DNA of 64,000 nucleotides. Source: Tetraselmis striata. Lineage: Eukaryota; Chlorophyta; Chlorodendrophyceae; Chlorodendrales; Chlorodendraceae. The translations under genes and the position numbers were made by a program. Shown here in pieces: positions 44,181-64,000 of this stretch. How positions within the stretch are numbered: the first letter of the stretch is position 1; every line of letters begins with the position of its first letter. The stretch is taken from the NCBI GenBank assembly GCA_006384855.1, contig VCJN01003039.1, positions 301,655-365,654 of the forward strand, written 5' to 3'. Below the pieces are notes generated by a model that saw only the letters and a list, made by a program, of their open reading frames with translations, did no database searches and had not been told where the DNA came from.

Positions 44181-45281
44181 TTAAGCCCTACTGCGGCATT
44201 GCTCAAAATGCCTCGCAATAGACTCAGTCATATGCCATGGAGGGTGAATAAACACACGTTCATTCGACAAGTCGCGCGATAATATCGAATCTTGTTCTGA
44301 ACAGAACGGCAAGTTTCGATGGGTATTCAGACCCTCATTATCCGCACAGCCCTCCAGCGTAAACTGGAGCATCTCATGTAAGGGATCGAAGACTCTATCG
44401 ACCAGTCGCCACTCGGCACTGACTGTAGTCTTTCTAGGCATTCGACGCCTCGGAGCCTTTACGCGACGATGAGTCGAAACTTTCCGAGCACCCGTTACAC
44501 AGGCTACTGGCAAAGTCGTACCAGACTCGCGTACACTATTCGAGTTCTCATCAGTAGGCGACTCAACATAGTCGTTACTACTCTCAGAGATGACGACATC
44601 GTCACTCGAACATGTACTCGTCACAGGTATATCGTCATTCAGACGTGCATTAGACAATAATGCGGATACCTCAGGTGCCAATGACATATCGGCAACAGTA
44701 ACTTCGCAATCATGCGACTCGACAGTTACTGGACAGCATGATGTAACACAAACATCACTTACATCCCTATCTACTGAGCTGTCAGCAGCAGAATAAGGGC
44801 ACCCCTATTTCATCTTAGGGCAGTCTTTCAGAAGGTGAGCCTCACCACACTTAAAGCATGTTTTAGCAGCCATGTGCTTAGCATACTTCTCTGGCTCATG
44901 CAGTTTTGTGCCGAGGCGACTTACCGAGAGAACGGGCGCCACTAAAAGACCATAGCAAAGGTCGCCGAACAGCGTGTCGACTCGTTGCTTATCTCCTGTC
45001 GAGATATCGCCGGTATGTCGACATATTCTTGACGCGTACTCAGCGGAAGTTACCGGCACTCCATCAGCACGTCCTGCTGTCATCTGTAGTAACAAACTTA
45101 CCTGCATGCAAACTATAGATGCAAATGCAGGTGCAGATGCTACTATAGATGCAAATGCAGGTGCAAATGCTACTATAGATGCAGATGCAGGTGCAGATGA
45201 TACTATAGATGCAGATGCATATGCAAATGCTGCTATAGATGCAAGCTTCTCGTTGAGGATCTTGTACTTGAGCCGAAACAT
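44181..45281 (-). pseudogene. gypsy gag region with CCHC knuckle
   Basis: Two short frames cover this part. The upstream one has a gag-like stretch and ends with a CCHC knuckle, CFKCGEAHLLKDC. Near its start is a degenerate repeat of ASIV.APAFASIV type, from a GATGCAAATGCAGGTGCAGA repeat at about 45115-45240. The downstream frame is Ser/Thr/Asp-rich. Gag appears short for the family and somewhat broken. Confidence 0.6.
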
Positions 45282-49983: not shown

Positions 49984-50600
49984 CCTTGTGCGTGTATACA
50001 CAGGTCATGGTCAAAACGCCATGTGTATACACATGGCTTTTAGGTGCTCTGTGTATATACCTAGGGCGTAACCTTGTATGCCATGTGTACAAGTGTACAC
50101 ATAGGTATGCCATGTGTACACATAGGTATTAACTTGCATTGACTTGTGTACACACATGTCATTTTGACCATGACATGTGTATACACATGTCACTTGAAAT
50201 CGCCTTGTGTACACACAGGTCAGAGAAAATGACCCAAGTGCGAACATCGCTGCCTTGTTTGTACACATGTCATATGACATATGACCCAAGTACATGTTTT
50301 CACCCAGGCTATTTCACAGATGCCCCATATGCAAACAAGGTGTCGGGTTTTAGGTATCATTGGTGACCCGTGTATACACATGTCGATACCGTACTGACTT
50401 GTGTGTACATGAGTCATGATCACTTTGACCTGTTTGTACACGGGTAGTAAAAAGTGACATGTGTATGACAGGCAAAATAATGACATGTTTGTACACAGGT
50501 CAATTAAAAATATGACCTGTGTACAAACATGTCAAATTGATGATCTGTATATACCCAGGACGACCTGTGCGTACACATGGCATTTTATTTTGTACATGGG
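49984..50600. repeat. Array of ~20-bp palindromes at ~31-bp spacing
   Basis: About 19 variants of the near-palindrome GACNTGTGTATACACANGTC occur. Clear copies start at 50018, 50047, 50080, 50109, 50141, 50172, 50202, 50252, 50365, 50396, 50427, 50482, 50514, 50542 and 50562. Most steps are 28-34 bp. The sequence between the palindromes is not conserved. GCC and GAC starts alternate with GGC and GTC ends, so each unit stays self-complementary. Confidence 0.85.
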
Positions 50601-51027: not shown

Positions 51028-52201
51028 ATGGCCGCGCACGATTACAGCACTACACTCTCCACTCTCAAGTCTACTCAACTCTCAACCCTACGCTCAGCCA
51101 CCCCCCCCCCCCCCTTCACCCCCGAGCTGACTATGGAAGCCGCGCAGGTCGCCTCGGAGGCCGCCTAGCCTTCCGCCGGCGCTGCGGAGGCCGAAGTCGA
51201 CATGCAGGCCGCCGGCAACGACGAAGAGAGCATGCCGCTGCCGCAACCAGGCTAGCGCCCCGGCCCATCCCGCCATACGAACCGCCGTAACGTTGGCGAC
51301 TCGTCGCAGTCCGCTTTGCCCCGGCCCGACAGTGCCAGCGCTGAACCACCGATATAACTTGACGATGACGACGAGCAAGCATCCGAGGAGGAACCATCAC
51401 ACTTGAAACAGCGCACCGATATGCTCGTGAGAAACTTGAAAGCCACTTGGGGCCTCACTAATAAGACGAAACCTGTATGGTCGCTCTTCGTGCCCCAATC
51501 CCCTCCCAACCCTGACAACGAGGAGGACGAGCATAGCATCGTTAACGCCGCCACCCGCGTCACATGTTTCGTCTGCTACGCTGCCAAGTGTGGGCAGCTA
51601 CATCCGATGTACCCGTCTGCTCCACCAGACGGGGACGAGGGAACTGCGGCGCACGACGCCGATGCCGCGTTCTGCCCCCCCTCTCCCCCCCCCCCCCCCC
51701 CCCCGTTCCTAAAGATAAGCTAGGCCGCGAGGCCAAGCACACGTTCAATTACAAGCCCGATAACGGCAACACGTCCCTGAAATACCACGTGGAACATTAT
51801 CATAAGGAAGACCTCCGCAAGGTCCGCCTCACATCCCCGCTTGCCCCTTATCGTCTTTTTGCGTGTCCGCACGCAAGCTCGGCCTAGTAGTGGCGCTGCG
51901 ACTGACATATATGTCATTATGATTTTCGCGGTACATGTGACACATTATTGTCTCGGCGATCCCGACGCCAACAAAACCTCCTCCAGGAGGAGCGCGGCGA
52001 TAGCTTCCTCTAGAGACCCCAGCAATACCACCATCGCCACGAAACACACTGTCAGGTCGCACTTCATGTCGACGAAGAAGCGCCCCCACGACGACAAGCG
52101 AGTGATTTTCTTCTGGCGGCTGCTGTGCTTGCTCATCGTCTTCTACAGGCTGCCATTCAGCATCATCGCCAACCCAATATTCAAGGCTTTCATATGGTTC
52201 C
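51028..52201 (+). pseudogene. hAT transposase, 5' part, interrupted by a retroelement
   Basis: One frame from ATG 51028 runs through EVDMQAAGNDEESMPLPQPG and HLKQRTDMLVRNLKATWGL to VWSLFV, then VTCFVCYAAKC. The paired KYHVEHYH lies in another frame after a poly-C run at about 51688-51705. Together C-x2-C and H-x3-4-H form a BED-type zinc finger. 51841-52201 then reads KRVIFFWRLLCLLIVFYRLP and NPIFKAFIWFL, the conserved hAT block before the catalytic domain. In-frame stops at 51166, 51253 and 51355 and the poly-C frame change show that it was dead or decaying. The gene resumes at 63807 beyond the insertion. Confidence 0.75.
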
Positions 52202-52270
52202 TGCCGTCGCATGCTCGCATTCCCGCGTCGCTGTCACCAGCTCAATGGGCGGCCCATCCCCCCCCCCTGC
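52202..52270 (-). repeat. B2 terminal repeat
   Basis: TGCCGTCGCATGCTCGCATT and on, through CTCAATGGGCGGCCCATCCC and a poly-C run, repeats 53251-53321 apart from a 4-bp GGGG difference. It forms the outer 3' end of the element, next to the target-site duplication. Confidence 0.8.
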
Positions 52271-52284
52271 GCTGATCTCGTCTC

Positions 52285-53248
52285 GAACGCGAACCTAAGT
52301 CACTACAGGCACCTCTCAGACGCCTATAGGGCTTTAGTTCAGACCAGCGTTGCTGGTCTTGCCCGTACTCAGGGGGGTGAATGCCAGTGGCAATGAAGCC
52401 TCTCACCACAGGTCACTGCCACGCCGTGCAGTACTTTATGCAGTGCTGGTCGCGGCTATCAACCGTTCCTACAGTACTTTACGTCGGTACCGGGTCGAAT
52501 GGTGATGACAACCCAGCACCACCAGCAGCGCGCGCGCACGATGCAGCGGGCAGCACGCGTGCGACCGTACGACAAGCACGCAGGCTACCGTGATTACCTT
52601 TGGCCCTCGTTCCTCAAGCCGATCTCCGTCTCTTACACCGTCTCCGTCCCGTACACAGGCTCTTGCCTATGCCTGTCATAGGCAAACACAGGCACACACA
52701 GGCACACACAGGCAAGACAAGGGGGAAGAGGGACCGCTAGAAGGCGGAGGCCCTCTATAAGCACGCGATCGCGGCCATGGCAAGGCAGCCGCACGTCACG
52801 CTAAGTGCTAATAGCACGCGCGCCGTGCGCGCACCGCGCGCCAGACGCATTACGCACTGCCCTTGTCTAATTGTACTCATCAAGTCCTATACTACTACTC
52901 GGCTGCGGCTACAGTGAGTCTTGCGCCTTGTACCAGCAGCAGTACAGTACTTCGTCTTCTGCAGGTAGTCCACCTTAGGGGTCCCTGTTAGAGGTCCCGA
53001 TTAGAGGTGCCATCTGAGTTCCCTTAGAAGTCCCGCCTAGGTGTGCTTGGGCGGGTCTCTGATCTCCGGTATGTATGTCTCCTTGCGCCTCGCTCAGGGC
53101 TATGGCCAGGGTATGGAACCCTAACCAATCAGGTGCCCTGCCTGTGGTCTCAACCGGGTATGGAACCCTAGCTTTAACCCTAGCCGGCCCGGAAGGGCTT
53201 GGCTGTCCCGTTCTTCACGCGCACGCGGATATGACGGATGCTGCGGCA
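52285..53248 (-). repeat. A2 repeat (LTR-like)
   Basis: About 964 bp, the same as 62836-63806 except for about three substitutions, a 3-bp gap and one fewer 10-bp CACACACAGG-type unit. Seventeen unrelated bases separate it from B2. Confidence 0.9.
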
Positions 53249-53250
53249 GC

Positions 53251-53321
53251 TGCCGTCGCATGCTCGCATTCCCGCGTGGGGCGCTGTCACCAGCTCAATG
53301 GGCGGCCCATCCCCCCCCCCC
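53251..53321 (-). repeat. B1 internal repeat
   Basis: Copy of B2 located between the coding part and A2, two bases (GC) from the A2 edge. There is no corresponding copy next to A1. Confidence 0.8.
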
Positions 53322-53371
53322 AGACGGTTGGTCGCCAGAAGGGTGAACGGCCGCTGGGCGCCAATCGACGC

Positions 53372-56300
53372 TCAGTGATGCTGGTCGCCAGCGCACGCCT
53401 CGGTGTGGAAGTGAATTGACGCCACGGAGTGACGCCACTCAGCTCGCAGTTCTCGCTCTCGCAGCTCGTTGTCGCGGAAGACCGCGAGCCACAGGGTTGA
53501 TCGGCGCGTAGTGCGGTTACGCTGCATGTCGCCGGCAATAATGTGGAGCCGCCCACAGTCGCCTAGATGCCGTAGCCACTGCATGCGCGGGGAAGGTCCC
53601 TGCGCGATGTAGAAGATTGGTACTTGCACGAAAAGGATGTCCGCGCATGACGCCATGATTGGCAGCGCCAGATCAAGTAGTTGGAACCACGGGGAGGTCA
53701 CCACTATGAAAGGGGCCTCTAACCGCGGCTGTGTTGTCGTCATCGTCGTCGTCATCATCGTCGTCATCGCCACAGTTGCGGTTACATCGCGAGCGCACTG
53801 GTACACAAAGGATTCCAGCGCGTCCTCGCACATCTCAGTTTGGTACACCGGATTGAAGTCGTTGTTGATCACTGTCGCACCGCACGGCCGCAAGGCCTCA
53901 GCGGTGCTGCCATGTCCCGCCCACGGATCAAAGATTACTCGGCCGCGCCAGCTGATCACGTTGGCTAGCGCAGCGTACTCGCTCACTTGGTTACTGATTG
54001 CTGGTAGATAGTCATTGGCTGCTTGAAGGTTGTTCATCGTTCTTGTCACAGTTGCTGGGTGCCAGGCGCCAGGCATGCCCCAGTTCAGTCTTGCTGCCAC
54101 TGCCGCTCTTGTCGGCTGCAAAGGCGAGGCAGGGTCTTGAATCTCCTCGTCGCTGTCGTCGTTGTCACTGATTGTTGTGGCGGCTAAAGCCACCGATGTC
54201 CACTGTGCCGGCAACGCTGCGTCATCAGCGCTGCACTCCGCACACCGCCATGCCCCCCGCGGCACACGTGCCACAGGTGGCTGATGACACAACTTGTGCC
54301 AGCCTCGTTCACAGTCTTCGCAGATGATGATTGGGTTGCGCTGGGTGCTGACGCGCCCGTCGCACTCCTCGCACGCCATATTTGGGTCTTCAAATCCTGC
54401 CGGCAACACCACGTATGGAACGGCGCACCGCGCCAGCTCCTCAACGCGCACGCGCGCCGTGTCGCCGTCAGCTCCTTGGATGACCACCACTCCGTTGTCG
54501 TTCACCTCGTAAACCTTGTAGACAGCCGGTCGCACTCGTGGATCGAGCGCGTCTTGCTGCCGCTGTTGCACGTAGACGAAGTCGCCGGGGCTGAAGCGTT
54601 GCACTCCGGGCGCCACCAACCCCGCGCGCCTCCTGCGATAGCGCATCACTTCACGATGCTGCGCCGCTTCCACGTTGTGCATCGCCGTCGGCACCATGAG
54701 CGCCAAACGCTCCGCGCGCACTGTCATCAGCTCCCACATGCCCTCCGGGCTGTTGAAGTCCACGGCGCTCTCCTCAAAGAGCGCTCTTGCCTGCGCGGGA
54801 AACACGGGTGCCCTGCCGTACACCAACTCGTATGGGCTGTACCTGGTGCTGGCTTGCTTGCTGCAACGGTAGCCCAGCTCGATGGAAGGCAGAAAAGTGT
54901 CCCACACGACGCGCTTGCCGGGCTGAACCACATAGCGCATCAGTGCTTCCTTGACTGTTTTCACCATCCCTTCCGCCAACCCATTGGGCTGCGGATGATA
55001 GGGCAGCGGCTTCGGATGATCGATGTCATGCTCCACGAGAAGCTCGTGGAACTCGCCGCTGAACTCGGTACCGCCGTCGGTACACACCTCGCCTGGCGCC
55101 GCGAAACGCGCCAGCACTCTCTCTTGAAAGGCTTGTCGTATGTTGGCTGCCTCCTTGGTGCGCAGCGGCACCAACTCCACCCACTTGCTCGCCGCTTCCA
55201 CCATCACCAACACCCAGACATTGCGACTGCGGGTGGCCTCAAAAGGCCCCGCCAAGTCCAAGTGCCAGCGGTAGAACATGCCGAAGTGCGGCAGCGGCTG
55301 CATGTCCAGCGGTGAGGCTGCCTTTGGGCGACCGCTGGTGCCGCCGGGTCGATGTTGCAGCCGATCGCAGTCCGGACACGCCTTCTTGACTCGGGCTACA
55401 TCCTCCACCATCCCTGGCCAGAAATATGAAGCGGCGATAACACTGCGCAGCCGATCCCGCCCCAAATGGCCCATCTTGACATGCACATCCATAATCACGG
55501 TGTCTCGCTCACTGGGTGGCGGTACCTCGCGGTGCGTGCCGTCCTTGTGTAAATACCACAAGATGTTGTTTCTCCATGTATAGCGGGCATAAGGTTGCGG
55601 CATGTTGACGTTGCCCGCCTGCAGCTCCGCCATCGCCTCCGCGTCCATCCACGGATCGCCTCTCCGCGGTCCCGCCGTCAGCTCGCCGGTAACCGCCACC
55701 AAGTCGCCGTTGGCCGTGCCCTCATGGGCGGTGTCCAGCACGCGGCGTCGCGCCCATGCTGACAGCTCCGGCTGCCGGCTGCTCTGAGCCGTTGCGCACC
55801 AAAAGGCTGCCGCATGTCGCACGGTGCCCTCCGGTGAAAACTCACCGCGCCCATCCAGCTCCGTTGGGTCGCCCTCCACGGGCCCCCGACTCAGACAATC
55901 TGCGTTGACGTGGTGAACGCCCTTCCGATAGCGTACCACGAAGTCGTACTCGCTGAGCCTCATCGCCCACCGCGCCAACTTCCCACGAAGCTGAGCGGTG
56001 TTCATCAGCCATTCCAAAGGCCGATGATCTGTCACCACCACAAACTGCCTGCCAAACAGATAGTATCTGAACTTGTCCATGCCATACAACATGGCAAGAC
56101 ACTCACCCTCATAGCTGGCATAGTTTGGCTCCGCGCCTTGGCAGGTGCGGCTCGCAAACTCCACCACGTACTCCTGTCCTTCGTCGTCCTCCTGCGCCAA
56201 CACCGCGCCCAATCCAGCTCCGCTGAAATCGGTGTGCAGGATGAAAGGGCGGCCCCAATCCGGATTTCTCAGCACGGGAGCTGAAACCAGGTCTGCCTTG

Positions 56301-58675
56301 AGCTGCTCGAAGGCTCGTTGCTGCTCTGATCCCCACTCCCACGGCACCTTGCCAGTGAGCTTGGTCAGCGGCTTGCGCTTGACTGCAACTTGCTCGATGA
56401 ACTTACCGTAGTAGCCCACCATGCCGAGGAAGCGCCGAAGCCCCGCAACGTCAGTCGGCGGCGGCATCTTCACCACAGCCTCCACCTTGGAGTGCTGCGG
56501 GAATACGCCTTCGCCGTCGACCCAATGGCCCAAGAAAGCAATCTGCCTCACGGCCATGCGCCCCTTGCCGGGCGCCAGTCTGATGCCCGCCGTTGCGAGC
56601 CTCTGAAACACCGTCTCCAAATGCTGAAGGTGCTGCTGAAACACCTCAGCGTCGCTCATCTCGGCTGCGCCTGAAAAGACACAGATGTCATCGGCGTAAA
56701 CCGCCACGAACGGCAGATCGCCAAGGGCCTCATCCATGACACGCTGCCATGCTTGGCTGGCGTTCTTGAAGCCCATCGCCATCCGGCACCACTCATACTG
56801 CCGGTCGCTGCCCCAAAAGGCAGTCTTGTGTCGGTCCTCCTCTGCGATGGGCAGCTGATGAAACGCCGACTTGGCGTCAAACCCGCTGTACATGCGCGCG
56901 CCTGCGACCTTGCTGAGTAGCTCGTCTGTCTTGGGCATACAATACGCCCACGACTCAGTGACACTGTTCAACGGGCGAGCGTCCAAACACACCCGGATCC
57001 CGGTCCAGTTGCCGTCGTCGTCCTTCTTCGGTGGACACACTACTGGGATGCTGTAGGGAGATTGGCTCTCGCGGATCGCCCCAGCTGCCAACAGCTCCTT
57101 GCACCAGCTGTCCACGAAGTCCCACTCAGTCTTGCTCAATCGGTACTTGGGTCGCTTGATGGGCTGCGTGTTGGTCGTCGGTATCCTGAACTCCCAGTGG
57201 TTGACGGCCGGTAGGTCGCTGACGGACCACACCCACACGTCATCCCAAAAGCTGTCGCAGAGCTCCACTAGCTGTTGTTGCTGTGAAGCCTCGCACTCGC
57301 GCCCGCACCGCCAGTGTTTCTCAGGATCTTTCAGGCTGCGAACATCCTCCACGTGATCATTCATACTTGCCTGCGTGTAGCCACGATTGGCCCACGCAGC
57401 AGCGCTACTCCGTTCCGCAGTCCCGCCGCCGTCCGACACGGCGTTGGCGCCGAAAGCTCGGCGCCCCGCCCTGCTTGTCGCCGTCACCTCGCGGCGGTAG
57501 CGCGCGCTCGCGCGCACCATCACTGCCACGAACATGGCTAACACCGTGGTGTTGCCGAGACGACTCGCCTCGCCGAAGTGCATTGACGTGCCGCCCAACC
57601 AAATGAGCAGCAGCCAGCAGCATAGCGCCTGTTGACACAGCTGCTGCCATGCTCTCCCGCAGGATCTCTGCATCCTGCGTTGCTCTCGTCTCTCTCGTTC
57701 CGCGCGCTGAGCTGCCTGGGCAGCCCGAGCTGCGCGCTCCAGCTCCTCCAAGTCCCTCAGTCGCTGCTGCTCCACGAAGAGCTGCCCGACGATCCACGCT
57801 ACGCTGTGCAGACCCATGGCATTGCCTATGAGGCGCTCATGGTCCGGCAGCGATATGCCGTGAATTACGTTCGGCTCGTAACCGAAAAGCTCCTCCTTCA
57901 GGTGGACAGTGGGCCGTTCCCACTCGCCCGTGTTGATGTTGAACAACATGCCGGCCCCCTCGCCGGAATAGGCATCTGAGTCCGATCGCGCCAAGATCGT
58001 TGGCAACGCGCGTGGCTGCCCCGGTTTGTTGACGCGAACTCCGTTGGGTGGCGTCGGCAGATTGACATGCGGCCGTAGGTGCGGTGGCAGCACCTCTCGC
58101 AGCAGTCGTGGCTGCATGTCCGCCCGCCTCTCCCACGCCAACTTCAGTCTCTCCACGTCCCCCATGTTCGTCCAGAATCGTCGCACTCGGTGATGATTCG
58201 CTCCACAGCCCGCCTCATCAATCACGAGCGCTCTCCCGATGATCTTCGTGATGTATTTCTCAGACTCTTTGATGTACAGTCTCTCGTCTCCGCTCGTATC
58301 CACGTTCTCCAGCAGCCACCCCACGCCGGTGGGCTGCTTCTCCTCGAGCTTCTCGATGAACGCGGCCACGTGAAAGAGCAAACGTGACCTCCGGTCGCGC
58401 AATCCCAGCGCGTTGCGATTGGCTCTGCTCATGCCTGGGCAAGGCCATCCACACCCCACTATGTCTATGTATGGCAGGCGCCTCACGTCCTCCGTTGTGA
58501 TCGCCGTGATGTCCTGTGGAAACGAGTCCCACCCCTTGATCGCGCTAGCTGGTAGTAGATCCGGATATCTCCTACTGAGCTCCTTGAACACGCTGCCCAG
58601 CGGCCTTGCGGGCTGCCGGGTCGATGTCCGAATGCCGGTATCTGGCCACCTTCTGACCGTTGGCCAGCATGGCAT
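53372..58675 (-). CDS. Retroelement polyprotein: cytosine methyltransferase, RT, RNase H, integrase, PHD, second methyltransferase-like domain
   Basis: 1767 codons. (1) About 1-300: C5-methyltransferase, DNMT3-like: DIVGCGWPCPGMS with the catalytic Pro-Cys at 78-79, LLENVD (121-126), GANHHRVRRFWTN (158-170), LPDHERLIGNAMGLHSV (276-291). (2) About 345-390: hydrophobic linker. (3) RT with YADD near 661. (4) RNase H near 811 (FILHTDFSGAGLGAVL). (5) Integrase: zinc-binding H...C-x2-C (CPDC), then core HLDLAG near 1138, TDGGTEF and NGLAEG. (6) PHD finger about 1436-1490 (CEEC ... CEDC ... HKLCH ... CAEC). (7) About 1570-1700: DPWAGHGSTAEAL and VVTSPWF, like motifs I and IV of N4/N6 DNA methyltransferases. 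Methyltransferase homology straddles the overlap with the first frame. Confidence 0.85.
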   Translation of the reverse strand: MPCWPTVRRWPDTGIRTSTRQPARPLGSVFKELSRRYPDLLPASAIKGWDSFPQDITAITTEDVRRLPYIDIVGCGWPCPGMSRANRNALGLRDRRSRLLFHVAAFIEKLEEKQPTGVGWLLENVDTSGDERLYIKESEKYITKIIGRALVIDEAGCGANHHRVRRFWTNMGDVERLKLAWERRADMQPRLLREVLPPHLRPHVNLPTPPNGVRVNKPGQPRALPTILARSDSDAYSGEGAGMLFNINTGEWERPTVHLKEELFGYEPNVIHGISLPDHERLIGNAMGLHSVAWIVGQLFVEQQRLRDLEELERAARAAQAAQRAERERREQRRMQRSCGRAWQQLCQQALCCWLLLIWLGGTSMHFGEASRLGNTTVLAMFVAVMVRASARYRREVTATSRAGRRAFGANAVSDGGGTAERSSAAAWANRGYTQASMNDHVEDVRSLKDPEKHWRCGRECEASQQQQLVELCDSFWDDVWVWSVSDLPAVNHWEFRIPTTNTQPIKRPKYRLSKTEWDFVDSWCKELLAAGAIRESQSPYSIPVVCPPKKDDDGNWTGIRVCLDARPLNSVTESWAYCMPKTDELLSKVAGARMYSGFDAKSAFHQLPIAEEDRHKTAFWGSDRQYEWCRMAMGFKNASQAWQRVMDEALGDLPFVAVYADDICVFSGAAEMSDAEVFQQHLQHLETVFQRLATAGIRLAPGKGRMAVRQIAFLGHWVDGEGVFPQHSKVEAVVKMPPPTDVAGLRRFLGMVGYYGKFIEQVAVKRKPLTKLTGKVPWEWGSEQQRAFEQLKADLVSAPVLRNPDWGRPFILHTDFSGAGLGAVLAQEDDEGQEYVVEFASRTCQGAEPNYASYEGECLAMLYGMDKFRYYLFGRQFVVVTDHRPLEWLMNTAQLRGKLARWAMRLSEYDFVVRYRKGVHHVNADCLSRGPVEGDPTELDGRGEFSPEGTVRHAAAFWCATAQSSRQPELSAWARRRVLDTAHEGTANGDLVAVTGELTAGPRRGDPWMDAEAMAELQAGNVNMPQPYARYTWRNNILWYLHKDGTHREVPPPSERDTVIMDVHVKMGHLGRDRLRSVIAASYFWPGMVEDVARVKKACPDCDRLQHRPGGTSGRPKAASPLDMQPLPHFGMFYRWHLDLAGPFEATRSRNVWVLVMVEAASKWVELVPLRTKEAANIRQAFQERVLARFAAPGEVCTDGGTEFSGEFHELLVEHDIDHPKPLPYHPQPNGLAEGMVKTVKEALMRYVVQPGKRVVWDTFLPSIELGYRCSKQASTRYSPYELVYGRAPVFPAQARALFEESAVDFNSPEGMWELMTVRAERLALMVPTAMHNVEAAQHREVMRYRRRRAGLVAPGVQRFSPGDFVYVQQRQQDALDPRVRPAVYKVYEVNDNGVVVIQGADGDTARVRVEELARCAVPYVVLPAGFEDPNMACEECDGRVSTQRNPIIICEDCERGWHKLCHQPPVARVPRGAWRCAECSADDAALPAQWTSVALAATTISDNDDSDEEIQDPASPLQPTRAAVAARLNWGMPGAWHPATVTRTMNNLQAANDYLPAISNQVSEYAALANVISWRGRVIFDPWAGHGSTAEALRPCGATVINNDFNPVYQTEMCEDALESFVYQCARDVTATVAMTTMMTTTMTTTQPRLEAPFIVVTSPWFQLLDLALPIMASCADILFVQVPIFYIAQGPSPRMQWLRHLGDCGRLHIIAGDMQRNRTTRRSTLWLAVFRDNELRERELRAEWRHSVASIHFHTEACAGDQHH

Positions 58676-61600
58676 TCAACACGGCAACGTAGCCTCCGCC
58701 ACATGGCTCGTACAGGCTGATGCCCTCTTCGCGGGTGCTCAGCCTCGCCAGCCCGTGACGCTGCAGGCTCTGCACCTCCCGCAAAGGCGGTAGGTCTGCC
58801 GGCTCGCAGGTCTTGGACTCTTGCACGTCACGCCGTGAGGGTTCGTGGGCGGCGTGGCTGTGAGACACGTCACTGCCCCCCCCACTCTCCTCCCCCATCT
58901 CATCATCGCCGAGCTCCACCCCATGGCAGTAGCTCGCTCTCTCCACGCGCACCACAGGTTGGTGCTCGCGTACCCGCCGCTCCCACGCCGTTTGACTGAG
59001 CAGTGGCACTCTGCCGGCCGGTCGGTTGGGTGCGCGGAAAGTGCAGATCCTGGTCGCCGGGTCCGGTCGCAGCCCGAGGGCTGTGATGGTGGGTCCACCG
59101 AGCAGCAAGCCCGGTGCCTCGCCTCCATTCTCGTACACGCGCGGTGCGTGATGAGCTGCCATGATTGAGGTGACGGGGTCCCGAAGCGTGAAGACCACGC
59201 CATCCCGCAATCGTCGTTGTTGCTCGCATGAGCGCTTGCCATTGGCGAGCACCACCACCATGTCGACGTCCACCCACCCGCCAGCGCCCTTCACCACGGC
59301 CTCCGCCGCGCTTGGTTCCATCGCTGACGCGTTCATGCGGGTGTGGCTGCTCCCGCCGTCGGAAATGGTCTCGCACTGCAGCAGGGTATTGTTGGCGTGC
59401 AACTCGCACGTGATGGTGTCAAGCCGAGCCGTCTCCGGCTGCTCCTTCGCCTCAGCCCCCGTGGGCTGAAGGGCAAAAATGCCCTTGTGGGCGACTTCCG
59501 CCTGCTGCTCCAGGCAGCGTCGGGTCTCAGACCCTTTGGGCAGCCGTAGTGCTTGCTCCCTGATGATGTCTGCCTCAGTGGCACTGCGTCGATAGTCAGT
59601 GGCGGGTTCCCACTTGCCGCTGCGGCGACATACTGATGCCTCCTCAACCGCCGTGCTGGCATTGCGCTGCGCATTTGCACGCTTGCGATCTTCCTCCTCC
59701 TCGCGTTGTCTCGCGAGTTGACCTGGCCGGTAAATGGCAAAAGACCGTTCAGTCTCAGCCTCTCCGCCAGCGGTCTTCTCCTCCGCGGTAGACTTGCCGC
59801 CGCTTTGTTGGTCAGCGACCTCCTCCACCATCATCAGCGCTGCCTCGAAGGCGCGCTCCCCGCTCGAGGTCCTGGCTGAGTGAGCGTGGCTGCTGATCGG
59901 CTCGGTACTCAGGGCACCGCCGCCCCATGCTGTTGCCATGACGCTCTCCATCAGCCCGCCGCCGCTGCGCTCGAGCTGGTAAGCCTCCATCAGGCTGATG
60001 GAGACTCGCTTGCTCTCCAGAGCACGCATGACAGCATGCTTCTCCCAGCCATCCTCCACGGGCTCGTGCTTGACCAGCCGCTTGGCGATCTCCATCAGTG
60101 GCATGCGCGGCTGTCCACCGCCGTTGGCCAGTGACACAGGCACCGTGACGCTCTGAGCTGCGCTGGTAAGCTTCGCCGTCAGCTCTGTACGGCTGTGCAT
60201 TTGCTGCGCCATCTCCATCGATGGGGTGGTGAAGCCGCGAGGCAGCCTCCGCTGCCTGGCCTCACGTTCTCCGTCCTCCATGCGCACCGTGTTGACGCCA
60301 TGGCGTTGAGCCTCCGTGCTCTTACGCTGTGGGCGCAACTGGCTGGCTGCTGCCAGCCCCACCACCTCGCCCTCCTCGCTGCCGACGACTTGAGCATAGC
60401 CGTTGAGCGGCGGGTGCTTGGGTTCGTGGCCGTCTGTCGCCTGCAGGTTCGCAACGAACTTGCGCAGCTTCCCGCACTCCTCAGTTGTATGGCCCGCATC
60501 CTTGCCACACATCATGCACGACTTGCGGTCCGGCTTCTTGGGCTCCTCGCGCACTCTGATGTGCTCCCTGGGATTGGTTGCTGCCATGGCGGTCTCCGGA
60601 CGGAGATCAGGGTTGGCCTTCCAGCACCGCTTGGCAATGTGGCCCTTCTTGCCACACTCAGAGCACGTCTTGCTCCACAGAGGGCAGTCGCTCTTGTAGT
60701 GATCTTTCGACCCACAACCATAGCAACCTGCCTCATTGACGTGGCTGCCTCGCCCACCATCATCTCCATCACGGGCGTAAGCGCTCCTCTCCGTGCGCCC
60801 GCCTCCACGATCACCTCCTCCACCTCCACGTCGATGGTAGTTGCCACCCTCTCCGTGGCTGCCTCCACGACCACGGCTGTTGCTGCCGCGACCGCCACCA
60901 CGGCTGTTGTGCTCCTCGTGGTCGAAACCCCGCCTGCCGCCTCCGCTCTGGACGCGCGAGTGAGCGCGCATGTGAATGCTGCCGCGCTCCTGCTTGTCGA
61001 GCCACTCAGCCATCTCCCAGGTCCTGTCCACCTGGGTGTCCATCGTGTAGTCCACGAGTTGTTGTTGTGCGAAGTTGATGCGGGGGCTGAAACGCGTCTT
61101 GCCCCAGGCCCGCTCGATGAACTCCACGTTGACGCGCGATATCTCCACAATGCGTGTCGTCTCCTCGGTGACCAGGTTCTTGACCCTGGTGTGCGTTAGC
61201 AACAGATTGCGGAAGTCGCGCACAGTCTCACCAGGCGAGCGATGGCACTTGCTGTACCGCTCCGAATGCAGCTCGATCTGCTTGGTGATGTTGACGAGCT
61301 CCTCCCACATGCCGTCCAACAACCGGCGGTAGTAGTCGAGCCGTTCTGCGCCTTCCAGCCTCCGTACGATCCTCGAGTCCTCGTACTTGATGCCCCGGCT
61401 GATGAGTGTAGTCTCTAGCGACTCCAAGTACTTTGGCTGAATGCGGCTCCGCAGCACGTGAACCTCGTGGATCTCGTTGAACGGTCTGTTGCGGTCAAAT
61501 GCCTGTTGTTGCTCCTTCTCCATGGCACAGTCCGTAGAGTTCTTCCACGTCTCAAACGTGTGCTCTGAGGTCGCCTTCTCGTGACCCGCCCACAACCTCC

Positions 61601-61679
61601 CGTTGGAGCCCTTGCCCCTCCGCGGCTCCATCTCATCGTCGCTCATTGCGTCGTCCACAAAGTACGCGTGTCCGTACAA
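58572..61679 (-). CDS. Retroelement gag-protease frame, entering the methyltransferase
   Basis: 1035 codons, with the same frame open for some distance upstream of 61679. In order: a helical gag-like region (SRIQPKYLESLETTLISRGI, YYRRLLDGMWEELVNITKQI), a Gly/Arg/Ser-rich RNA-binding-like stretch (RGGGRGSNSRGRGG), zinc knuckles CYGCGSKDHYKSDC, CSECGKKGHIAKRC and CMMCGKDAGHTTEEC, and a retropepsin-like protease (CETISDGGSSHTRM, LLLGGPTITALGL). The end is ISLYEPCGGGYVAVLNAMLA, then RHSDIDPAARKAA, which resembles methyltransferase motif I and the strand after it. It overlaps the next frame by about 100 bp, as gag and pol frames do in this group. Confidence 0.78.
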   Translation of the reverse strand: MYGHAYFVDDAMSDDEMEPRRGKGSNGRLWAGHEKATSEHTFETWKNSTDCAMEKEQQQAFDRNRPFNEIHEVHVLRSRIQPKYLESLETTLISRGIKYEDSRIVRRLEGAERLDYYRRLLDGMWEELVNITKQIELHSERYSKCHRSPGETVRDFRNLLLTHTRVKNLVTEETTRIVEISRVNVEFIERAWGKTRFSPRINFAQQQLVDYTMDTQVDRTWEMAEWLDKQERGSIHMRAHSRVQSGGGRRGFDHEEHNSRGGGRGSNSRGRGGSHGEGGNYHRRGGGGGDRGGGRTERSAYARDGDDGGRGSHVNEAGCYGCGSKDHYKSDCPLWSKTCSECGKKGHIAKRCWKANPDLRPETAMAATNPREHIRVREEPKKPDRKSCMMCGKDAGHTTEECGKLRKFVANLQATDGHEPKHPPLNGYAQVVGSEEGEVVGLAAASQLRPQRKSTEAQRHGVNTVRMEDGEREARQRRLPRGFTTPSMEMAQQMHSRTELTAKLTSAAQSVTVPVSLANGGGQPRMPLMEIAKRLVKHEPVEDGWEKHAVMRALESKRVSISLMEAYQLERSGGGLMESVMATAWGGGALSTEPISSHAHSARTSSGERAFEAALMMVEEVADQQSGGKSTAEEKTAGGEAETERSFAIYRPGQLARQREEEEDRKRANAQRNASTAVEEASVCRRSGKWEPATDYRRSATEADIIREQALRLPKGSETRRCLEQQAEVAHKGIFALQPTGAEAKEQPETARLDTITCELHANNTLLQCETISDGGSSHTRMNASAMEPSAAEAVVKGAGGWVDVDMVVVLANGKRSCEQQRRLRDGVVFTLRDPVTSIMAAHHAPRVYENGGEAPGLLLGGPTITALGLRPDPATRICTFRAPNRPAGRVPLLSQTAWERRVREHQPVVRVERASYCHGVELGDDEMGEESGGGSDVSHSHAAHEPSRRDVQESKTCEPADLPPLREVQSLQRHGLARLSTREEGISLYEPCGGGYVAVLNAMLANGQKVARYRHSDIDPAARKAAGQRVQGAQ

Positions 61680-62834
61680 AGTGTCTCGCCTAGGGTTGCG
61701 TGTTGGCAGCGGGGAAAAGTAGAGCTCGTCCTCGTCGTCTCCGCTGTCCTCTACTTCGCTGCTGCTGTATGCGTACGCGTTCTCGTGATCGCGCTCCTCA
61801 ACCCTCCTGGTTGGATGCGTCTACGTCGTTCAGCAGCCCCTTCACGATCTCCTCGATCAGCTGGTCTTCCTCCAGCTCGTCCAGTGCTGCCCACAGGTCG
61901 CCCAGGGCAAAGCCGCCCTCTGCGCTTTCCAGCGCGTCCACTGGCTGTCGCCCACGCCGGGGCCCTCAAGCTCAGAAGTGGGGCTGCGTCCACGCGGCCT
62001 CAGAAATCTGAGGGCCGCTGCCGCGTCGCCTCGCCGGTGTTGGCGCACACTCGTCTCAAGCCGATACACGAACAGTTCCAACGTCCGGTATAACTCAGTG
62101 CCGATGAACCTCAGATCCACACCACCGCCACGAAGAGGTTGGCACCGAGCTGAGCCACGCACCCGCCAGCCGTCACCCTCGCCGGGGCCCTCAGGCGGCG
62201 ATGCCGCTCCCTCCAAGTGCACTCCGGCACTGACACACGACTGTGAAGCCGGCGCCCTCCCACTCCCGGGCTCACGCCCTGCCTCCCTCCTACCACCTGT
62301 CGTCGTTGAACCGTTGAACTGGAGCAGGTCGTTGAACTGGAGCAGGCCAAAAGAACCGGAGCAGGCCAAAAGAACCGGAGCAGGCCAATTGGTACCCAAA
62401 GGAACACGCCGCTCTCTCACCTCCCGCGGGATGGTGAAAGAGCGTCGGCACTCCGTGGCTCTCACTCAGAGGCCGCGCTTGGTGAAAGAGCCACTCAGCA
62501 ACACACTTAGCTTGGCGTTAGTGCCCTTCGCCCACTCAATGCCCCGTGGTTCACGGCTCGCTCAGGCACAAACACAAAGTGTCCCCAGAGGTGGCAAACC
62601 CTTTGCCTCTCGCTCGTCACCAAACCCAAAAGGAAACTCGAACCACTCCACACCTCGTCACCTCACTAGTCCGAGGGCCTTCCTGGCCCACCCTCTAGTG
62701 GGTTTTGTCCCCTCACCCTTCGAGTCTTATGTACTCTTACGAGCAGTTCCCATATAGGTTTGTCTCCAACACCCCTTAGACCTTTCCTCACCTCTAGCAC
62801 TCACTCTCACCCACGAGAGCTCTTCCCCCTTGTC
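61680..62834 (-). other. Leader region of the methyltransferase retroelement
   Basis: Between A1 and the first long frame. It holds coding-like pieces (for example LDELEEDQLIEEIVKGLLND near 61810-61880) and a GAACCGGAGCAGGCCAAAA repeat at about 62318-62392. Directly after A1 I see no TGG-type primer site of the usual LTR-element kind. Confidence 0.5.
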
Positions 62835-63806
62835 TGAACGCGAACCTAAGTCACTACAGGCACCTCTCAGACGCCTATAGGGCTTTAGTTCAGACCAGCG
62901 TTGCTGGTCTTGCCCGTACTCAGGGGGGTGAATGCCAGTGGCAATGAAGCCTCTCACCACAGGTCACTGCCACGCCGTGCAGTACTTTATGCAGTGCTGG
63001 TCGCGGCTATCAACCGTTCCTACAGTACTTTACGTCGGTACCGGGTCGAATGGTGACAACCCAGCACCACCAGCAGCGCGCGCGCACGATGCAGCGGGCA
63101 GCACGCGTGCGACCGTACGACAAGCACGCAGGCTACCGTGATTACCTTTGGCCCTCGTTCCTCAAGCCGATCTCCGTCTCTTACACCGTCTCCGTCCCGT
63201 ACACAGGCTCTTGCCTATGCCTGTCATAGGCAAACACAGGCACACACAGGCACACACAGGCACACACAGGCAAGACAAGGGGGAAGAGGGACCGCTAGAA
63301 GGCGGAGGCCCTCTATAAGCACGCGATCGCGGCCATGGCAAGGCAGCCGCACGTCACGCGAAGTGCTAATAGCACGCGCGCCGTGCGCGCACCGCGCGCC
63401 AGACGCATTACGCACTGCCCTTGTCTAATTGTACTCATCAAGTCCTATACTACTACTCGGCTGCGGCTACAGTGAGTCTTGCGCCTTGTACCAGCAGCAG
63501 TACAGTACTTCGTCTTCTGCAGGTAGTCCACCTTAGGGGTCCCTGTTAGAGGTCCCGATTAGAGGTGCTATCTGCGTTCCCTTAGAAGTCCCGCCTAGGT
63601 GTGCTTGGGCGGGTCTCTGATCTCCGGTATGTATGTCTCCTTGCGCCTCGCTCAGGGCTATGGCCAGGGTATGGAACCCTAACCAATCAGGTGCCCTGCC
63701 TGTGGTCTCAACCGGGTATGGAACCCTAGCTTTAACCCTAGCCGGCCCGGAAGGGCTTGGCTGTCCCGTTCTTCACGCGCACGCGGATATGACGGATGCT
63801 GCGGCA
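62835..63806 (-). repeat. A1 repeat (LTR-like), 5' end of the element
   Basis: 972 bp starting TG and ending CA, pairing with A2. It includes CACACACAGG-type tandem units at about 63238-63270 and ends exactly at the hAT sequence that resumes with TTCCTCGATTCG. Confidence 0.9.
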
Positions 63807-64000
63807 TTCCTCGATTCGTCGCTGCCTCTGCCCTCTCGGGCGAAACTGACATCGCCGCTACTGCCGGAGCTGAAAAAAGAGGCCAGCAACCGGCTGAAAG
63901 GCCTACAAAAACGTGTGCGTGGAGTGGCTCTCACTTTTGACTTGTGGATGTCCCGCAAAACGGAAGATAATCACTTTTGACTTGTGGATGTCCCGCAAAA
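63807..64000 (+). pseudogene. hAT transposase, continuation after the insertion
   Basis: Reads FLDSSLPLPSRAK, LLPELKKEASNRLKGLQKRV and GVALTFDLWMSRKTEDN. The last block is the hAT catalytic-domain start (T.D.W.S). It follows NPIFKAFIWFL at 52201 in the usual hAT order. The final 70 bases contain a direct duplication that breaks the frame. Confidence 0.75.
63931..64000 (+). repeat. 30-bp direct duplication at the window end
   Basis: TCACTTTTGACTTGTGGATG and the next 10 bases (63931-63960) recur identically at 63971-64000, separated by 10 bases. It may be real or an assembly artefact. Confidence 0.85.

Follow-up and report, generated by a model that had tools for sequence, protein, structure and literature searches.

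A Ty3/Gypsy-type retrotransposon of the green alga Tetraselmis striata with a DNMT3-like methyltransferase split between two frames and termini suggestive of integration from circular DNA

Retroelements of algae are known to carry cytosine (C5) DNA methyltransferases (DNMTs). In Klebsormidium nitens, the element KnitGypsy-Dnmt3 combines a Gypsy Pol with a Dnmt3-type C5 enzyme and has DIRS-like repeats (de Mendoza et al. 2018, PMC5890265). According to the passages of that paper covered here, the K. nitens enzyme showed no activity in yeast, a result the authors regard as inconclusive, and the SymbioDIRS-Dnmt3 enzymes of Symbiodinium methylated CG in yeast. In other reports, likewise covered in part, DNMT3 was described in Copia elements of the long terminal repeat (LTR) type (PMC12344493), and a transcriptome survey listed no DNMT3 in green algae (PMC9998398). 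Here, we describe an 11.6-kb retroelement of Tetraselmis striata, which occupies positions 52202-63806 on the minus strand of a 64,000-nucleotide stretch of contig VCJN01003039.1, the window of this analysis. It is likely, on the whole, that this element represents a young Gypsy family with a split DNMT3-like C5 enzyme and terminal repeats in the order A-coding-B-A-B, which would use a translational frameshift and integrate from circles. The narrower proposal is that an element with a DDE integrase integrates from carelessly end-joined circles and makes its DNMT3-type enzyme by a +1 frameshift through the S-adenosylmethionine (SAM)-binding region, methylation being limited to the particle. This is favoured with somewhat less assurance.

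Two long open reading frames (ORFs) are present, both on the minus strand. ORF1, the gag frame, is open for 1082 aa (58572..61820) and contains two zf-CCHC stretches (E 6.4e-5), the better of which is a CCHC zinc knuckle at 60681..60728. ORF2, the pol frame, encodes 1767 aa (53372..58675). In ORF2, Pfam identified the reverse transcriptase (RT) (residues 549-718, 56522..57031; PF00078, RVT_1, E 8.1e-23), RNase H (residues 806-910, 55946..56260; PF17917, RT_RNaseH, E 3.4e-34), the zinc-binding domain of the integrase (residues 1052-1107, 55355..55522; PF17921, Integrase_H2C2, E 2.8e-13) and the integrase core (residues 1135-1220, 55016..55273; PF00665, rve, E 5.4e-9). The Ty3/Gypsy Pol order of RT, RNase H and integrase is thus present, with the gag zinc knuckle upstream of it. 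ORF1 gave no Pfam match for an aspartic protease, and neither frame gave one for a tyrosine recombinase at E<=1; a weak match to the AviRa methyltransferase lies in ORF1 (residues 1012-1074, E 0.047, below the cut-off). An initial annotation, made from the letters alone, had recognised an integrase-bearing, gypsy-type retroelement here, and the RT, RNase H and rve integrase of ORF2 bear it out. The outer ends it gave are exact to the base, as can be seen from the target-site duplication TTCC on the forward strand (52198..52201, beyond the 3' end of the coding strand, and 63807..63810, before its 5' end). It erred in assuming a volvocine host, as T. striata belongs to the Chlorodendrophyceae, a class of core chlorophytes, and it mentioned neither the split of the C5 enzyme between frames nor the A-coding-B-A-B repeats.

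Genome searches were run on the window's own assembly (224 Mb). A protein search with ORF2 returned at least 29 rows at at least 27 loci, whole or partial; 21 rows span residues 1-1767 and 14 of these are without an internal stop, both figures being lower bounds. The fear that host genes had been fused onto the element through misassembly, which the initial annotation had raised against itself, is put to rest by this recurrence and by the 14 stop-free rows, and its probability is negligible. The target duplications at the element ends argue against it as well, and so does a relative in another data set, P0005, a 1732-aa protein on a 9-kb contig with the same domain order as ORF2. It is identical to ORF2 at 70% of positions in the C5 domain, 89% in RT, 91% in RNase H, 88% in the integrase core, 66% in the PHD finger and 68% in the C-terminal domain. 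The ORF2 protein searches gave 15 different proteins among the matches listed, 13 of them named jgi/Tetstr1, which we take to be the JGI code for T. striata, and the others being P0005 and P0015. Over 982 aligned columns, 4 mismatches and 3 gap openings separate the two copies of the long repeat, A1 and A2, and the insertion is young on account of this near-identity. The family is a young Ty3/Gypsy-type retrotransposon of T. striata and is probably mobile still.

The ends of the element are built from a long repeat, A, and a short one, B. Read along the coding strand, A1 (62836..63806) opens the element; past ORF2 come a run of 11 G (53311..53321), B1 (53251..53310), A2 (52285..53248), which begins TGCCGCAGC, a joint of 27 nt with a G run that varies between copies (52258..52284), and lastly B2, the terminal repeat of the 3' end (52202..52257), which ends in GCGACGGCA. 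The A copies were placed by repeat alignment, and B1, B2 and the joint by alignment of copies. Following GTTC, A1 reads AGACAAGGGGGAAGAG, with no TGG start of a tRNA primer site. When seven copies, the window included, were aligned 3' of ORF2, B (the G run, then ATGGGCC...GCGACGGCA) preceded A2 in all seven and came again after A2 in five; L003 (contig C1687) continues into a tandem copy.

Both ends could be read in 14 copies, and in every one the 5' end is the start of A and the 3' end is B. A perfect 4-bp duplication stands next to the TG of A and the CA of B in 13 of them, namely GGAA in the window, GCCC in C569, GGTG in C1713, GGAG in C1240, GTGT in C1425, CGAC in C981, GTAG in C1767, GGGC in C927, TGTT in C1431, GTAC in C2011, CATC in C1423, GTGG in C2171 and TAAG in C2529; in C238, an older copy with stops, GATG faces GATT (three of four bases match). 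The form A-coding-B-A-B is found in 11 of the 14 (ten with a perfect duplication, and C238), the A2 of C2011 being cut at about 625 of 964, while two, C1431 and C2171, have the form A-coding-B, each with a perfect duplication. These counts leave out seven copies with one end read (C2631, C470, C1687, C311, C1950, C1944 and C539). A canonical LTR structure, in which only A would form the repeat, was considered and is rejected because the duplications are found beyond B; identical LTRs, each with its own TG..CA at the duplication on both sides, were seen in none of the 14 copies. As for single copies, C2171 (L087, L094) is a short derivative, in which A starts about 1.07 kb before ORF2 and most of the gag part is missing, and C2529 (L081, L063, L095) has an inverted A after A2, yet a B end and the perfect duplication TAAG.

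At the junction B1|GC|A2 lies the palindrome CGGCAGCTGCCG (53244..53255), which, divided as CGGCA-GC-TGCCG, is perfect and contains CA-NN-TG. Across the genome, with at most one mismatch, 145 B ends and 40 B|A junctions were found (control 0 for each). Among the first 100 of the 145 B ends there are 27 same-strand pairs less than 2 kb apart; in 25 of these the spacing is 995-1067 bp and takes 21 different values. Two inverted B pairs were also noted among these 100, head-to-head B|B before B-GC-A (L084/C311 and L092/C1219), and such joints look like two joined left ends of complementary DNA (cDNA). The A2/B2 joints are highly variable: 13 different ones occur among the 14 read, only C1950 and C1944 being equal. 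B begins at ATGGG, the first base past the G run, in five joints (C1425 with two G), three retain bases of the G run, and six are truncated or have other bases (56 nt in C1767). The five joints that begin at ATGGG mark the 11-G run as the proposed polypurine tract.

These observations can be accommodated by a simple scheme. The plus-strand DNA would start after the G run, so the real repeat of the cDNA would be B-GC-A and the linear cDNA would read B-GC-A...B-GC-A. Careless joining of its ends would yield circles with two repeats, whose A|B joints are new each time, and homologous joining of the repeats would yield circles with one. The integrase may then cut the palindrome inside the repeat, for which the 40 genomic junctions make it the candidate site, and insert A...B. 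A cut after CA on both strands gives exactly the termini observed; A-coding-B-A-B would come from the two-repeat circles and A-coding-B from the one-repeat circles. The ends thus fit an integrase that cuts the palindrome in end-joined circular cDNA, as we infer from the sequences. The A-coding-B form was predicted by this scheme beforehand and was then found, with duplications, in C1431 and C2171; C1431, C2011 and C2529 had been chosen because their A end had not been found earlier, and C2171 was fetched alongside.

To our knowledge, elements of the LTR type are not thought to enter the genome from a DNA circle. There is, nevertheless, a likeness in foamy virus, the integrase of which, in vitro, cuts each strand of the palindrome at the 2-LTR junction after CA and so produces a 2-nt overhang (Delelis et al. 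2005, PMC1180852, in the passages covered). A palindromic CA-NN-TG repeat junction is the integrase substrate in that case, as proposed here. The foamy-virus palindrome arises on joining of the cDNA ends (PMC1180852, in the same passages), whereas that of T. striata is built into every B-A repeat, and one-repeat circles would therefore serve too.

A different explanation would be that of DIRS-like split repeats, in which the whole A-coding-B-A-B is transcribed and copied, and B2 is inherited from the template. The repeats of KnitGypsy-Dnmt3 are described as of DIRS type (PMC5890265, in part), and the repeat order is the same here. A B2 inherited in this way agrees poorly with joints that differ among near-identical copies (13 different of 14) and with a B2 that, in many copies, is shortened or has unrelated bases in front of it. 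Further, two of the 14 resolved copies do without A2-B2 and still have a perfect duplication, and an rve integrase is present, with no tyrosine recombinase found in the two frames. Copying of split repeats is therefore quite improbable, and membership of the DIRS elements as such was rejected on the rve integrase and the 4-bp duplications. Some points do weigh against integration from circles. In C470 (L006), A2 is followed by flank without B, and its 5' end was not found; no form could be assigned to the other six copies of which one end was read; and the arrangement A-B-A-coding-B, which is also predicted, is absent among the 14 resolved copies.

The second hallmark of the element is its C5 methyltransferase. 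The catalytic part lies at the beginning of ORF2 (residues 25-300, 57776..58603) and was recognised by Pfam and by profile searches of PDB. The Pfam DNA_methylase profile scores 21.9 bits with the whole of ORF2 (cut-off 22) and 25.1 bits (E 1.4e-5), over the cut-off, with its first 340 residues alone. The PC, ENV, R.RRFW and GN blocks are all carried, which we take to be motifs IV, VI, VIII and X, respectively. Against PDB, the ORF2 part alone places DNMT3A, 3B and 3C on top (E about 0.001). A profile of five retroelement C5 domains gives DNMT3A first (E 9.5e-14) and DNMT3B second, with HaeIII, DNMT2 and HhaI behind, and a profile of seven sequences again gives DNMT3A first (1.7e-13). It speaks against the DNMT3 kinship that the latter profile puts HaeIII (2.5e-11) above DNMT3B (6.9e-11). 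In an 11-row tree, which has a single DNMT3 reference, in pieces, eight retroelement C5 domains and DNMT3A separate from two other C5 enzymes of the assembly (100/99); the eight form one group at 88/87, beside DNMT3A, and the Ty3 C5 pair is set apart from the C5 domains of the Copia type and of long interspersed nuclear elements (LINEs) (96/98). By these sequence comparisons, the retroelement enzyme is DNMT3-like, as the initial annotation had held.

This enzyme is not encoded in one piece. The Pfam match in ORF2 starts at profile position 49, and motif I is accordingly missing from ORF2. It is found instead at the end of ORF1 (..ISLYEPCGGGYVAVLNAMLANGQKVARYRHSDIDPAARKA..), not in one chain with the rest of the C5 domain. 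The last 55 residues of ORF1 (58575..58739) were assigned to it by alignment with the C5 domain of a LINE, L040, in which motif I is in frame: the alignment scores 81, and 500 shuffles gave a mean of 26.7 (sd 4.3) with none reaching 81. Against the Copia-type C5 domains of L039, L041 and L042, as many as 0, 16 and 4 of 500 shuffles, respectively, scored as well. ORF2 lies +1 relative to ORF1, and the two open frames overlap within the C5 domain for 104 nt (58572..58675), up to the ORF1 stop TAG at 58574-58572. The +1 offset is kept in all 15 loci read, the window included, and no insertion or deletion was seen at the junction in 8 of 8 loci (again with the window among them) and then in 5 of 5 further loci. 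L071 has the same offset, and so has the decayed L073, with a C5 part about 65% identical; L073 also retains the ORF1 stop and the stretches GGGCAGCGTGTT and TAGGAGATATCC. The frame of P0005 opens at the same point as ORF2.

It is proposed, from these comparisons, that a +1 frameshift is programmed within the C5 enzyme and that the whole domain exists in Gag-Pol only. Ribosomes would shift +1 within the 104-nt overlap, the complete enzyme would thereby occur only in particles containing RT as well, and in these it may methylate the element's own new DNA. The frames could otherwise be joined by splicing, or the break could be a fixed defect that leaves a dead C5 domain. A public gene model, P0001, does jump between the frames as by a predicted intron, and its sequence omits motif I, which argues against splicing as the means of restoring the enzyme. 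No known frameshift signal was identified in the overlap, a point that favours either alternative and counts against the proposed frameshift. A dead enzyme would also agree with a base composition that shows no scar of methylation. Yet even at about 65% identity the offset is preserved, together with the ORF1 stop and the two halves on either side, P0005 retains PC, ENV, RRFW and IGN, and the ratio of nonsynonymous to synonymous substitution rates (dN/dS) for the C5 part is 0.34 between the window and L073, even though L073 is decayed. Splicing or a fixed defect is thus unlikely, and the programmed frameshift is preferred. Elsewhere, dN/dS is 0.18 between two Copia C5 domains and 0.23 for a third C5 pair, where dS is near saturation; for L041 versus L078, dS is saturated.

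If the enzyme works in the particle, the element may write its own marks, and the decay of CpG was looked for as a trace of self-methylation, in base composition and in singletons; it was not found. There is no CpG loss in the element (observed/expected CpG 0.96, vs 0.98 in window positions 1-52000). Nor is there an excess of C>T changes at CpG: 9 of the 25 C>T/G>A singletons in eight copies fall in CpG, for a comparison value of 30.7% of C/G bases in CpG. Both results tell against self-methylation, though base composition is weak evidence either way because the copies are young.

Downstream of the integrase, ORF2 carries a PHD finger (residues 1435-1481, 54233..54373; PF00628, E 4.2e-6, above the cut-off), as was noticed initially, followed by a methyltransferase-like domain (residues 1526-1750, 53426..54100), which was delimited by its motifs, a nine-sequence alignment and profile searches. 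The nine aligned sequences, the window included, keep MPGxW, EY, DPxxG...T, an acidic D, AL, VxSPxF, LD and W; three of them belong to separate frames at other genomic loci (L043 and L045, which are mutually close, and L044). All the strings on which the initial annotation relied, PC, LLENVD, RRFW, IGNAMG, DPWAGHGST and TSPWF, are present. It had likened the last two to motifs I and IV of N4/N6 (Dam-like) methyltransferases. Motif IV of such enzymes is (D/N/S)PP(Y/F/W). In all nine sequences the second Pro is Trp, Leu or His instead (SPWF, SPLF or SPHF).

An active N4/N6 amino-methyltransferase, by which the element would write two kinds of mark, has in its favour the motif I DPxxG...T, the invariant acidic residue after it and SPxF at the place of motif IV, all in nine sequences, as well as the match of one of the nine to phrog_799 'DNA methyltransferase' (E 1.1e-5). 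The missing second Pro and the lack of any Pfam match at E<=0.05, each in 9 of 9, speak against it. The nine-sequence profile finds methyltransferases alone in PDB (8 of 8 matches at E<=10), the best of them no better than E 0.06, and the window sequence by itself matches no methyltransferase there, its eight matches (best E 0.074) being hydrolases and antibodies. The latter result and the fact that the fold is assigned from motifs and weak profile matches also count against the methyltransferase-like reading of this domain. An active N4/N6 enzyme is thus considered rather unlikely. Of the domain-by-domain Pfam check that the initial annotation had advised, with a missing match at either end to be counted against it, DNA_methylase at 25.1 bits and the PHD finger came through, while the unmatched C-terminal domain weakens that half. 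What stands of the second enzyme is a conserved, methyltransferase-like domain; its membership of the N4/N6 or Dam group does not.

The C-terminal domain alone has 166 matches in the genome, those listed reaching down to 35% identity and including other families. Metagenome elements, P0015-P0018, have an integrase, a PHD finger and then the same C-terminal domain, and differ from the window element in being without PF00145 (P0016 and P0018 were scanned; P0015 and P0017 have precomputed domains). Hence, the C-terminal domain is best described as one conserved in other retroelements and methyltransferase-like in sequence, whose activity is doubtful. The PHD finger may bind a histone tail and guide insertion, and the C-terminal domain may serve to bind SAM or DNA without necessarily acting as an enzyme. 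In other repeats, this domain stands as a frame by itself, about 230-270 aa long (L044:363-1181, L045:4859-5554 and L043:5077-5673), the L045 copy being near a 799-aa frame of unknown kind.

The genome holds many more C5 domains. A search with PF00145 gave at least 123 rows, the window's contig not being among the rows listed, and one with the C5 domain of L040 gave 152; many of these rows lie in frames of more than 1000 aa. Among long proteins, the matches listed as C5 homologues were only Tetstr1 proteins and P0005. In the translations, Copia-type elements (L039, L041, L042, L077 and L078, and also L026, L028, L034 and L036-L038) show a DNMT3-like C5 domain that follows gag and precedes the protease, all within a single frame that reaches about 2300 aa; they fall into several diverged families. 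A LINE (L076/L040, contig C2687) has a single 3505-aa frame for endonuclease, RT, a DNMT3-like C5 domain and RNase H. The Copia and LINE labels come from reading translations, and Pfam was run on four of the C5 domains. Apart from these, a repeated stand-alone C5 protein of about 325 aa (FVDLFCGIGG, GGPPC; L009-L014, L016-L019 and L025) is not retroelement-like at first sight and has three copies on contig C1230. A 630-aa C5 frame, L024 (C2009), has a bacterial or phage look and is perhaps on a contaminant contig.

Other repeats were observed in the window. Five related 44-nt copies of the type GTGTATACACA lie at 49992-50444, including an inverted pair with arms at 50140-50193 and 50363-50416, and a 30-nt tandem repeat, ACTATAGATGCAAATGCAGGTGCAGATGCT-like, is at 45112-45261. 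Just past the element, at 63931-64000, is a direct repeat of TCACTTTTGACTTGTGGATGTCCCGCAAAA in two exact copies 40 nt apart.

Gypsy-captured DNMT3 was previously known from one streptophyte; now a chlorophyte is added, a single genome of which has such C5 domains in elements of the Gypsy, Copia and LINE classes. Neither this element nor any retroelement DNMT from Tetraselmis is reported in the open-access listings and passages covered, most subscription journals being outside the scope. As far as this literature tells, it is chiefly the circle-like ends that are new, along with the split enzyme, the PHD finger with its methyltransferase-like tail and the three-class spread in a chlorophyte. 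In T. striata, which can be cultured, one may ask what advantage methylating DNA offers a retroelement. The split enzyme bears on whether frameshifting gates methylation, and the ends touch the old question of whether repeat circles can be integration precursors, of which they would, if the reading is true, be a natural case.

Among the described systems, Klebsormidium already provides a DNMT3-bearing Gypsy element, so that the kind as such is known. The Symbiodinium carriers, SymbioDIRS-Dnmt3 and SymbioLINE-Dnmt, share with T. striata the presence of retroelement DNMTs of several classes in one algal genome; they are tyrosine-recombinase and LINE elements of another host lineage, whereas the window element has an integrase (PMC5890265, in the passages covered). 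The Copia-borne DNMT3 of PMC12344493, as far as this source was covered, resembles that of the Copia-type elements L039, L041, L042, L077 and L078; Tetraselmis has no match in its main text. The closest system remains KnitGypsy-Dnmt3, the description of which, the only basis of comparison, fits the window element in Gypsy Pol, Dnmt3 and DIRS-like repeats. Its DNMT lies inside the Pol frame, in contrast to the split frames found here, and the passages covered mention no frame split, PHD finger, second methyltransferase-like domain or target duplication (PMC5890265). Since its repeats are DIRS-like, the K. nitens element may share the circle-like ends, and if it works alike, methylation and integration from circles may be linked.

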